This document shows, one piece after another, positions 49,449 to 54,819 of a stretch of 64,000 bases of DNA. The DNA is taken from assembly GCA_000690595.2 (NCBI GenBank), contig JHUT02000001.1, forward strand, positions 186,001 through 250,000, given 5' to 3'. This DNA comes from Natrinema mahii. GTDB taxonomy: Archaea; Halobacteriota; Halobacteria; Halobacteriales; Natrialbaceae. The stretch's first letter is position 1, and every line of letters begins with the position of its first letter. Under the pieces are notes generated by a model. It searched no databases. It was not told the DNA's origin and saw only the letters and a program-made list of their open reading frames with translations. The position numbers were made by a program, and so were the translations under genes.

Positions 49449-50182
49449 TCAGTCGTCGCCGACTGGCAGTCGATCGCGAAACGCCGGCGACAGCGCGTCG
49501 GCGACGCCGGCCGCGAGGTCGCGAGGCGTCGTGTTTTCGCCGTCCTCGAGCGGCGGCACCGTCTCGACCGCGTAGCCCGTCATCCGCTCGAGTTCGTCGG
49601 GATTCGTCCGTTCGGCGAGCGTCTCGCCTGCGTACTCGTTGACGACGACGCCGCGGACGTCGATCCCGCGGTCCTCGAGGGCGTCGATCGAGAGCGCGGT
49701 GTGGTTGAGCGTCCCCAGTCCCGAACGCGTGACGACGATCGCCGCCGCGTCGAGGTCGGCGACGAGGTCGATGACCTCGCGGTCGCCGGCCAGCGGGACC
49801 CGGAGGCCGCCGATCCCCTCGACGATCGGGACCGGCGTCGCGTCGATCGCGCGCTCGCAGGCCTCGCGGATCGACTCGTAGGCGAGGTCCTCGCCGGCGA
49901 CGTCGGCCGCGACGCGCGGGGCCAGCGCCGGCTCGAGGAAGCGCGGACAGGTGGCGGCGTCGGGGTCGCCACAGGCCGCGGCGACGAACCCGGCGTCACC
50001 GACGAGCGAAGCTCGTCGAGCCGACGACTGTGACTCGTCGACGTCGTCGGGCGGGTGGCCGGTCTGGGCGGGCTTGATCGCCCGCGCCTCGTGGCCGGCT
50101 TCCCGGAGCAGTCGGGTGAGTCCTGCCGTGACGACCGTCTTCCCGACGCCAGTGCCGGTGCCGACGACGGCGAGCGGCCGGC

Positions 50183-50186
<4 letters not shown>
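49449..50186 (-). CDS. bioD: Dethiobiotin synthetase
   Basis: 245 residues from the ATG at 50186, which overlaps the bioF stop by four bases; the longer open frame upstream is a shadow of bioF. P-loop G-T-G-T-G-V-G-K-T at 9-17, substrate lysine in AIKPAQTGH, and the motif VEGIGGLRVPL near 125-135. It closes the ureido ring of biotin from the diamine with CO2 and ATP; where BioU supplies the carbamate, BioD uses that product. Last gene of bioB-bioU-bioF-bioD. Confidence 0.93.
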
Positions 50187-51430
<1,244 letters not shown>

Positions 51431-51555: not shown

Positions 51556-52614
51556 TCAGAAGCCGGGCAGTAGATCTGCGGGACCGAAGACGCCGTACTC
51601 GCCGGCGCGGTTGCGTCGGACGCCCGCCTTCAGATAGCCCAGCGCGGGCCCGTTGACGTTTGCTTCCATGCTCGTCTCGTCGCCCAGCTGGAAGGTGTTG
51701 GTCGCCGTCTCGCCGTCGAAGGTGCGACCGGTCACGCGGACCGTCGTCGTCGTCGGCTTCTCGTCGTTGCGCACGTCGAGGATTCCGCCGACGGTGACGT
51801 CTTCGGCGTCACAGACCCCCGCACGCTCGAGGAGGACGTCGTCAGCGTGTTCCATGTCCTCGAACTCGATGACGCCGTCGTGGTCGTCGATGATCGCCTC
51901 GATCTCCGCCTCGGAGAGGTCGCGGGCGGTCTCGATGTCGTACTCGGGGAGGTGCGCGATGTCCTCGCGGACGGTGCCGCGGTTGTCCTCGTAGCCCGAT
52001 TTGAGGCCGACGCCCCAGTGGATGTCGACGTCGGTGACCTCGACGAACGACTGGGCGGCCAGCGCGGCCGCGCCGGTCAGGAGACCGGGGGTCGCGCCCG
52101 CGCCACAGATGAACGTCATGGCGCTCTCCTCGAACGCCTCGCTACGGTCGTCGAGCATGTCGATCACGCGCGAGCGCTTGAGGACATCGATCATGACCCC
52201 GGCGTAGCCGCCCTCGACGAAACGGTCGGCAGTTCGGGGAATGAAGTCGTGTTCGTAGTTCGGCAGCGCGAGCAACACGGCGTCGATCCGGTCGCCGTGG
52301 TCGATGATCTCCTGAATGGAGTCCTCGCTGGGGTGGGCCTGACTCGAGGCGACGACGCCTTTGTCCTCACCGTGTTGTTTGACGCCCCCCGCGGCCGTCG
52401 CCGTGGCCGAGCCACCGTCCGTCGCTACTTCGTTGTCGATGTTGCCCTCCGTCGCCGCCAGCAGCTCGTCGACGTCGAGACCGTCGAAGTCGACGGCGAC
52501 GCCGTGGCGGTCACACGCCGCGACGGGCGTCAGTGCGTCCTTGTGCTGGCTCACTTCGAGTGCTCGTCGGCCGATGCCTCCGGTTCCAAGTACCGCAAAC
52601 GTGATTTCGTTCAT
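51556..52614 (-). CDS. bioU: BioU-like suicide enzyme (saccharopine-dehydrogenase-like fold) for DAPA step
   Basis: 352 residues. Rossmann start FAVLGTGGIGRRALEVSQ (G-T-G-G-I-G at 10-15), a region LLALPNYEHDFIPRTADRFV, then GVMIDVLKRSRVIDML with Lys146 as the best candidate for the sacrificial lysine, and the catalytic half FICGAGATPGLLTGAAALAA. Its resemblance to saccharopine dehydrogenase and its place between bioB and bioF fit BioU, described in cyanobacteria as a single-turnover replacement for BioA that uses its own lysine as amino donor. No bioA is present in the operon. Assignment rests on fold and context; the lysine identity is a guess from position. Confidence 0.75.
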   Translation of the reverse strand: MNEITFAVLGTGGIGRRALEVSQHKDALTPVAACDRHGVAVDFDGLDVDELLAATEGNIDNEVATDGGSATATAAGGVKQHGEDKGVVASSQAHPSEDSIQEIIDHGDRIDAVLLALPNYEHDFIPRTADRFVEGGYAGVMIDVLKRSRVIDMLDDRSEAFEESAMTFICGAGATPGLLTGAAALAAQSFVEVTDVDIHWGVGLKSGYEDNRGTVREDIAHLPEYDIETARDLSEAEIEAIIDDHDGVIEFEDMEHADDVLLERAGVCDAEDVTVGGILDVRNDEKPTTTTVRVTGRTFDGETATNTFQLGDETSMEANVNGPALGYLKAGVRRNRAGEYGVFGPADLLPGF

Positions 52615-52644: not shown

Positions 52645-53748
52645 TCAGTCGTCGCTCGGTTCCGCGCCAGTACTCGCCGTCTCGCTCGAGGTGTCCGCTG
52701 TGCCGGCGTGACGAGCCTTGACCTCCTCGGGGTCGAACTCGTTGGTGTCCCGGTTGGGTTCCAGCCCCGCCCGCTCGATGATCTCGATATCGTCGCCGGG
52801 CGACTGGCCCTCCGTCGTGAGGTAGTCGCCGGTGAGGAGGCCGTCCGCGCCGGCTTCCAGCGGCAGGTGCTGCTCGTCGGGCTCGAGGTTGACCTCGCGG
52901 CCGCCGGTCAGGCGGACCCGCGAGTCGGGATGCAGCAGTTTGTACACCGCGACCGTCTTGACGATCTCCTCGGTGGTGATATCGACCCCCTGCTCGGCCA
53001 GCGGCGTCCCCGCGACCGGGTTGAGGACGTTGACCGGCAGCGAGGAGATGCCGATGTCCTGTAAGGCGATCGCGGCCTCGACCCGGTCGGTCGGCGTCTC
53101 GCCCATCCCGAGGATCACGCCCGCACAGAGGTCCATGCCGGCCTCCTTGGCGACCTCGAGGGTCTGGACCCGGTCCTCGAAACTGTGGGAATCGACGATC
53201 TCCGGGAAGTAGTTCGGGGAGGTCTCGATATTGTGATTGTAGTGATTGATCCCCTCCTCGGCGAGGATCGCGGCCTCCTCCTCGGTCAGAATGCCCAGCG
53301 AGGCGTCGACCTCGAGGTCGCACTCGTCACGGACGAGCCGGATCGACTCGAGGACTTCTTCCCACTCCTCGGGGCGGTGCTCCTTCGAGACGCCCTTCTC
53401 GGCGACGACGATCCCGAACCGCTGGGCACCGTCGCGTTCGGCCCGCTTGGCGGCCTCGAGGATCTTCTCGGGGCCGAGGAAGCCGTAGGTGTCGATGCCG
53501 GTGTCGAAGTGGACCGACTGCGCGCAGAAGCCACAGTCCTCCGCGCAGTTGCCCGCCTTCGCGTTGACGATCGAGCAGGCGTCGACCGTGCCGTCACCGA
53601 AGTGATCCCGCACGGCGGCACCGGCCTCGGCGAGCGCCTCCACCGGCTGGGCCATCAGCGCGACCCCGTCGGTCCGATCGAGGCGCTCGCCGGCCATGAC
53701 CCGCTCGAGTGCGTCGTCGACCGTCTCGTTGCCAGTCTCGTAAACCAC
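52645..53748 (-). CDS. bioB: Biotin synthase
   Basis: 367 residues from a GTG at 53748. The radical-SAM cluster C-x3-C-x3-C-x2-C region reads NAKAGNCAEDCGFCAQS with Cys68, Cys72 and Cys75. Later motifs are ETSPNYFPEIV, VILGMGETPTDRVEAA and the [2Fe-2S]-related region LTGGREVNLEPDEQHLPLEA. It inserts sulfur into dethiobiotin to make biotin. An acidic extension of ~40 residues is at the C-terminus. First gene of the operon; the dyad at 53734-53773 overlaps its start codon, so repression would block both transcription and initiation. Confidence 0.94.
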   Translation of the reverse strand: MVYETGNETVDDALERVMAGERLDRTDGVALMAQPVEALAEAGAAVRDHFGDGTVDACSIVNAKAGNCAEDCGFCAQSVHFDTGIDTYGFLGPEKILEAAKRAERDGAQRFGIVVAEKGVSKEHRPEEWEEVLESIRLVRDECDLEVDASLGILTEEEAAILAEEGINHYNHNIETSPNYFPEIVDSHSFEDRVQTLEVAKEAGMDLCAGVILGMGETPTDRVEAAIALQDIGISSLPVNVLNPVAGTPLAEQGVDITTEEIVKTVAVYKLLHPDSRVRLTGGREVNLEPDEQHLPLEAGADGLLTGDYLTTEGQSPGDDIEIIERAGLEPNRDTNEFDPEEVKARHAGTADTSSETASTGAEPSDD

Positions 53749-53773
53749 GGTTCGAATAGTGGTTAACGAGACT
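53734..53773. promoter_or_regulatory. BirA-type operator over the bioB start
   Basis: Arms of 15 bp, AGTCTCGTAAACCAC at 53734-53748 and GTGGTTAACGAGACT at 53759-53773, are complementary at 14 of 15 positions with a 10-base spacer. Inside it, TCGTAAACC-N14-GGTTAACGA follows the known BirA box TTGTNAACC-N14-16-GGTTNACAA except for one base in each outer arm. It starts within the bioB coding sequence and ends at the TATA-like box, a position suited to repression by biotin-loaded BirA. Confidence 0.8.
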
Positions 53774-53778
53774 ATAAT
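53773..53778 (-). promoter_or_regulatory. TATA-like box of the biotin operon
   Basis: On the minus strand ATTATA lies 25-30 bases upstream of the bioB GTG, the spacing expected for a leaderless transcript. It directly abuts the BirA-type dyad, so an occupied operator would cover the transcription start. Confidence 0.5.
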
Positions 53779-53847: not shown

Positions 53848-54819
53848 TCAGTCGTCGAGAACCCGCGTCGAGACGGCGTACGTCTCGCCGTCGTAGTGAT
53901 AGTAGCGGGTGTTCTCGATCCCGAAGATCGGCGTCCAGGCGTCGTACTCCTCGAGTCGGACCCGATCGGCGTCGTACTCGCGGGCCAACGCGATGGCATC
54001 CCGCAACTGATCGTTCCGCAGGAGCGTTTCCCTGATCAGTTCGGTCCCCGCCACGTCGTCGGTCGTTCGGACGAGTTCGTACGCGCCCAGTCGTGTGTCG
54101 TCGCCCTCGGATGCCACACGATCCGAACTCGCAACGAGGACGTCGTCCTCCCACTCGATGCTCGTGATCGCGTCCGTCGTCGTCAGCGACAGGGAGTCCG
54201 CCTCGAGGTCGAATCGGGCGCAGAACCCGACCGAGCCCTCAGCGGGGCCGTCGTCGACGTCCCCTTCGGTTCCGAAGGCGTACTCGCCGCCGCCGAGACC
54301 GGCGATCGGATCGGGCTCGGCGACGCCGTGACCGCCGGTCGATCGCCCGTCCTCGATCCCGTCGTTATCGACGGTGAGGTCCCAGGCGAAGCTGTCGCCC
54401 GGTTCGAGGCTGTGTGCCGGCTCGTTTATCCCCCGTGGCGCGACGTGGTACCAGCGGCCGTCGACGCGCTTGTGGAGGGACCACCGATACGGGTTGTGTG
54501 TAAACTCGCTGGCCGATTCGTTAGACAGCGTGAACGTCAGTCGCTCGGACTCGGTGATCGACGCGGCCGACGGCTCGAGGTAGATCGCGGTCTCTCCGGG
54601 GTCGATCTCGTCGAACGCGACGAGTCGCTCGACGTCGTACTCGGGATAGCCGTCGGGATCGGTCCCCGGCGCCGGGAGCGTTCGGTCGTCGTCGGGAAGC
54701 GGCGTGAGGTCGTCGTCCGGACGCGAGTCGTTCGCGGGCGACTCGTCGTCGCCGGCGAGACAGCCGGCGAGTGCCATGCTACCGATCGCAGCGAGGAGGG
54801 AGCGGCGCGGGCGGCGCAT
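53848..54819 (-). CDS. Tat-exported lipoprotein of unknown function
   Basis: 323 residues. The N-terminus MRRPRRSLLAAIGSMALAGC has twin arginines, a hydrophobic stretch and a lipobox L-A-G-C (Cys20), the standard haloarchaeal Tat lipoprotein signal. An acidic linker follows, then a beta-rich domain (~60-170) with LTFTLSNESASEFTHNPYRW and WYHVAPRGINEPAHSLEPG, an immunoglobulin-like pattern. It is probably anchored to the outer face of the membrane. The substrate is unknown. Single gene; it starts 295 bases from the next gene, with a hairpin element between. Confidence 0.82.
   Translation of the reverse strand: MRRPRRSLLAAIGSMALAGCLAGDDESPANDSRPDDDLTPLPDDDRTLPAPGTDPDGYPEYDVERLVAFDEIDPGETAIYLEPSAASITESERLTFTLSNESASEFTHNPYRWSLHKRVDGRWYHVAPRGINEPAHSLEPGDSFAWDLTVDNDGIEDGRSTGGHGVAEPDPIAGLGGGEYAFGTEGDVDDGPAEGSVGFCARFDLEADSLSLTTTDAITSIEWEDDVLVASSDRVASEGDDTRLGAYELVRTTDDVAGTELIRETLLRNDQLRDAIALAREYDADRVRLEEYDAWTPIFGIENTRYYHYDGETYAVSTRVLDD

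Follow-up and report, generated by a model that had tools for sequence, protein, structure and literature searches.

What does an inverted repeat lying exactly on the start of a biotin operon do in an archaeon? BirA combines the activities of a ligase and a repressor, a dual role worked out on bacterial promoters, and a preliminary description of the 64,000-nucleotide stretch of the Natrinema mahii genome analyzed here (the window) read such a repeat at bioB as a BirA-type operator. We find that the same box sits here on a TBP/TFB promoter, and we put the probability at roughly 93% that BirA, the bifunctional ligase/repressor, controls the bioB-bioU-bioF-bioD operon through this dyad as its operator, an estimate that covers the repression model described below.

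The biotin operon and its probable operator

The predicted operator lies in the promoter of a biotin synthesis operon that runs bioB-bioU-bioF-bioD on the minus strand of the window (Table 1). We saw no bioA in the operon; a BioU-family gene stands between bioB and bioF, and because it scores well but far below the NCBIfam cut-off, it would be a divergent BioU. A lipoprotein-like gene (MRRPRRSLLAAIGSMALAGCLAGDDES..., 53848-54819, minus strand) lies directly upstream of the bioB promoter in the same orientation.

Table 1. Features of the bioB locus, the second operator site, and the predicted regulator. Positions are those of the window unless a contig (C) or locus (L) is named; promoter positions are relative to the bioB GTG.
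Feature	Position	Strand	Basis or remark
bioB, biotin synthase, 367 aa	52645..53748	-	TIGR00433, 338.9 bits, over cut-off
bioU-like, (S)-8-amino-7-oxononanoate synthase BioU family	51556..52614	-	NF047886, E=8.7e-102, 340.5 bits, below curated cut-off of 600
bioF-like PLP acyltransferase (8-amino-7-oxononanoate synthase)	50183..51430	-	TIGR00858 best match, 396.7 bits vs cut-off 426
bioD, dethiobiotin synthetase	49449..50186	-	TIGR00347, 105 bits, over cut-off
Predicted BirA operator core, TCGTTAACC-N14-GGTTTACGA	53738..53769	-	-21 to +11
Full inverted repeat enclosing the core, 20-nt arms, ungapped	53734..53773	.	17/20 paired; 53734-53753 / 53754-53773; repeat finder
Promoter-side half-site TCGTTAACC, non-coding	53761..53769	-	-21 to -13
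Coding-side half-site GGTTTACGA, inside bioB codons 1-4 (gtG GTT TAC GAg)	53738..53746	-	+3 to +11
bioB GTG start codon, probable leaderless transcription start	53746..53748	-	Y at -1, R at +1
TATA element TTAT	53774..53777	-	-29 to -26; conserved columns, 42 genera
BRE-like CCACAA	53781..53786	-	-38 to -33; conserved CC (-38/-37) and AA (-34/-33), 42 genera
Second predicted operator site, 5' of bioY (biotin importer), 2 mismatches	C1:806228-806259 (L247)		pattern scan
BirA, the only one in the genome	L001:1189-2127	-	HTH_11 + BPL_LplA_LipB + BPL_C

The 15-bp dyad that had been described across the bioB GTG is real: 14 of 15 positions pair between its arms AGTCTCGTAAACCAC (53734-53748) and GTGGTTAACGAGACT (53759-53773). 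The core with its spacer reads TCGTTAACC-actattcgaaccgt-GGTTTACGA in the direction of bioB and TCGTAAACC-N14-GGTTAACGA on the plus strand. Measured against the published BirA consensus, TTGTAAACC-[N14/15]-GGTTTACAA, which we use throughout as given in PMC545781, the bioB box shows 15 of 18 identities at N14 spacing. The preliminary description had counted one change per arm; there is one change in one arm and there are two in the other. In both arms the second position departs from that of the bacterial consensus, with TCGT in place of TTGT.

By pattern matching with mismatches over the whole 3.8-Mb genome, we identified the bioB site as the best BirA-box match present, and the pattern GTNAACC-N14-GGTTNAC occurs exactly once at zero mismatches. 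Three places genome-wide lie within three mismatches of TCGTAAACC-N14-GGTTTACGA: bioB (one mismatch), the site 5' of bioY (two mismatches, and the only site besides bioB within two changes), and an unrelated place (three mismatches). A backward control pattern, allowed the same three mismatches, had no matches in this genome. The symmetric pattern is present in 56 of 70 related genomes, and the control in 0 of 70. We dismissed the third, weak match (C5:71851), which lies inside or beside unrelated open frames, as chance.

The probable regulator

The BirA-type operator proposed at the bioB start is supported both by an HTH-bearing BirA in the genome and by conservation of the two arms in relatives. 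A search for a BirA with an N-terminal HTH, the check suggested beforehand, found one in this genome, with domain matches placing a winged HTH at its N terminus (HTH_11, E=2.3e-14, 53.4 bits vs a cut-off of 25). The protein scores 177 bits against TIGR00121 (cut-off 83) and 56.7 bits against the repressor-domain model TIGR00122, under the cut-off of 70. Catalytic ligase domain and HTH thus share a single chain, as in Group II biotin protein ligases. Escherichia coli BirA (PDB 1bia) is likewise a bifunctional ligase/repressor with an N-terminal winged HTH, and the helix SRAAVWKHI of the Natrinema protein aligns with its SRAAINKHI, both conforming to the recognition helix SRAA(I/V)xKHI.

BirA is encoded in 70 of the 71 genomes searched. 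The HTH is kept in 69 of the 70 BirA-bearing genomes, as judged by match extent, and the recognition helix is E. coli-like in those haloarchaeal BirAs that were read. The BirA without an HTH belongs to a single incomplete genome (G002, 86%) in which box, bioB, and bioY are all absent; in another single genome (G003), BirA, bioB, bioY, and the box are all absent. As far as two such exceptions can show, this agrees with HTH and box being kept or lost together. The pairing of BirA with the operator is itself a prediction from sequence, and these genomes also contain short HTH proteins that weakly resemble the BirA N terminus (E 1e-7 to 1e-3), as would fit a different HTH regulator of biotin genes reading the box. 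These short matches, however, are scattered and missing from most genomes, whereas the box fits the established BirA consensus (PMC545781) and the HTH of BirA itself is retained almost throughout, with its E. coli-like helix. We therefore regard another regulator as highly unlikely and take BirA to be the probable reader of the box.

Conservation at the bioB start

Among 392 genomes of the order, bioB turned up in 181. We compared 110 bioB start regions from 42 genera, computing column information with one sequence per genus; related genomes are not independent, and no P value is attached to the 110-genome conservation. The expectation that both arms would recur in relatives held in all 42 haloarchaeal genera. 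GTNAAC stands exactly at -19 to -14 in 106 of the 110 promoters, accompanied in these 106 by GGTTKAC at +3; among the four exceptions, one carries GTNAAC at a spacing of 13 bp and the other three differ from GTNAAC by a single base. The left-arm columns (-20 to -13) carry 0.8 to 1.95 bits, information in the spacer columns -10 to -2 is near 0, and conservation beyond the promoter (-60 to -40) is near zero.

Because the right arm lies in coding sequence, conservation there needs a codon-usage control. In the 110 genomes this arm is spelled by codons 1 to 4 of bioB, RTG-GTT-TAC-GA, so that it falls wholly within a nearly invariant MVYE, and the half-site might be conserved for a needed N-terminal peptide with the palindrome as a by-product. 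Codon usage speaks against such a reading, since GTT is the second codon in all 110 genomes, yet it makes up 5.3% of the other bioB valine codons and 2.6% of valine codons in seven window genes including bioB. So constant a use of a rare valine codon indicates that what is conserved is the DNA sequence rather than the peptide. Two genomes that write GAC at codon 3, and whose peptide is VDE or VDK rather than VYE, still keep the valid half-sites GGTTGACGA and GGTTGACAA, and two others write TAC-AGC, giving the half-site GGTTTACAG. The non-coding left arm is strongly conserved too, and the same box is present at bioY promoters, where it is non-coding. Contradicted already by the codon and left-arm data, peptide conservation is a reading to which we give next to no credence and which we rejected; the predicted operator clearly fixes the spelling of the first BioB codons, DNA rather than peptide being held.

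The start codon itself is GTG in 101 of the 110 haloarchaeal bioB genes (this one and 109 relatives), whereas among the leaderless starts of Haloferax volcanii GUG accounts for 6 to 9% (PMC4983044). This preference is not accounted for by the half-site, which needs only the third base of the start codon.

Promoter architecture and the transcription start

All 110 bioB starts have a pyrimidine at -1 and a purine at +1, and the 30 nt upstream of the Natrinema bioB GTG contain no in-frame ATG, GTG, or TTG. The BRE/TATA elements at -38/-29, together with this strict pyrimidine/purine step, place the 5' end of the mRNA at the GTG, and on these promoter elements the bioB mRNA is most likely leaderless. 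In H. volcanii, 72% of protein-coding transcripts are leaderless (PMC4983044).

This placement bears on how the dyad would act. Its arms flank the start codon, an arrangement compatible with an RNA hairpin that controls translation or attenuates transcription, and the preliminary description had accordingly proposed combined transcription and translation control. An mRNA beginning at the GTG, however, would leave the left arm untranscribed, such that the dyad would not be whole in the RNA and neither a hairpin nor a separate translation control would be needed. The prevalence of leaderless transcripts in H. volcanii argues in the same direction, and at bioY the whole box precedes the probable start. 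We rejected the hairpin on the position of the predicted 5' end and consider it extremely improbable; the proposal of combined control thus goes unsupported. On a leaderless mRNA, bound BirA would act on transcription initiation only.

The rest of the predicted regulon

The bioY operator of N. mahii is centered 28 nt upstream of the bioY ATG, and haloarchaeal bioY operators are centered 28 to 29 nt upstream. With a weight matrix built from the bioB sites, we scanned 30 bioY promoters and found the box in 29, at scores of 21 to 33 against a best control score of -2.3. Within the 14-bp spacer of the bioY operator there is a TATA-like T-T-x-A-T, the left CC of the operator falls at the expected place of the BRE, and the central six spacer bases are 79% A+T at bioY versus 54% at bioB.

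Every haloarchaeal site away from bioB that we traced stands in front of a biotin gene: bioY, in two genomes a biotin carboxylase subunit gene, and in one genome a separate bioU. When we searched 247 genomes of the phylum with the more stringent bacterial pattern YTGT..ACAR, sites appeared in 10 of them, all outside the order of the window; 9 of these 11 sites precede bioY-like genes, which were recognized by sequence only. Since the boxes away from bioB precede biotin genes both inside and outside the order, the box appears to mark biotin genes as a class, and the bacterial-type sites outside the order suggest that it probably predates the haloarchaea.

Two further observations concern individual targets. 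In two genomes without bioB, a BirA-like box (L154:2055-2086 and L156:2055-2086) precedes a biotin carboxylase/BCCP gene by about 66 nt, and the spacer of the box contains a TATA-like stretch. Rodionov, Mironov, and Gelfand are said to have counted archaeal biotin carboxylases among BirA targets. Across the bioY loci of the window's family (L217-L245), the bioY operator scores a mean of 27.1 in genomes with bioB, many of which have TCGGAAACC, versus 29.5 in genomes without (Mann-Whitney P = 0.03, uncorrected for kinship). The lower scores may mean that import is turned off only after synthesis, or that the site is decaying.

A model for biotin control in haloarchaea

By analogy with the established biochemistry of BirA, plentiful biotin would lead BirA charged with biotinyl-AMP to dimerize, and each winged helix of the dimer would bind one of the two half-sites, TCGTTAACC and GGTTTACGA, 14 bp apart. 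The promoter architecture suggests a steric block: the dimer would sit between TATA and the open complex, covering a region that begins just past the TATA element, spans the transcription start, and ends at codon 4 of bioB, and would prevent the recruitment of polymerase or its start at the GTG and so switch the operon off. When biotin is short, or when unbiotinylated carboxylase carrier consumes biotinyl-AMP, BirA would depart and a leaderless mRNA would be made from the GTG. The second operator, over the BRE/TATA of bioY, would bring biotin import into the same regulon.

The E. coli bio operator sits between divergent bacterial promoters. Here, in contrast, the promoter is archaeal (BRE/TATA), bioB is probably leaderless, and the operator lies within the coding start. 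A BirA regulon has been predicted for both Bacteria and Archaea since 2002 (Rodionov, Mironov, and Gelfand 2002, Genome Res 12:1507, via PMC545781), and that regulon shares with ours the palindrome, an HTH biotin ligase, and the bioB operon and bioY as targets. Box, regulator, and targets are thus those of the known BirA regulon. The haloarchaeal boxes differ from it: most are of the form TCGT...ACGA, spaced by 14 bp, and those at bioB cover the start codon and the probable transcription start. Delta-proteobacterial sites likewise include acGT and ACgA-type variants (PMC545781, Table 1), and one Desulfovibrio vulgaris site is annotated at +6 of bioB; unlike the haloarchaeal sites, however, they lie mostly 60 to 180 nt upstream of the start, in no fixed register (PMC545781). 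Three things set the haloarchaeal case apart: across 42 genera the box keeps strictly to the bioB start, it locks a codon there, and at bioY it is placed differently. We found no report of a haloarchaeal BirA operator or of such control in the literature searched, most subscription journals lying outside its coverage. The consulted part of a report on Natrialba magadii notes a BioYMN importer and biotin auxotrophy and does not mention regulation (PMC3403918).

The placement on the start at bioB and over the BRE/TATA at bioY means that one repressor seems to meet two placements. We tentatively propose, at somewhat less than even odds, a single haloarchaeal BirA regulon with two fixed placements (at bioB over the start and the first codons, with BRE/TATA left free; at bioY over BRE/TATA itself), differing thresholds, and a BioB N terminus dictated by the operator. 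If this is true, synthesis would be stopped by blocked polymerase loading and import by blocked TBP/TFB binding. The constraint on codon 2 would be a clear case of DNA binding, here predicted, overriding codon choice, and the two placements would offer a clean test, in genetically tractable organisms, of the way in which archaeal transcription is blocked by a repressor of the bacterial type.
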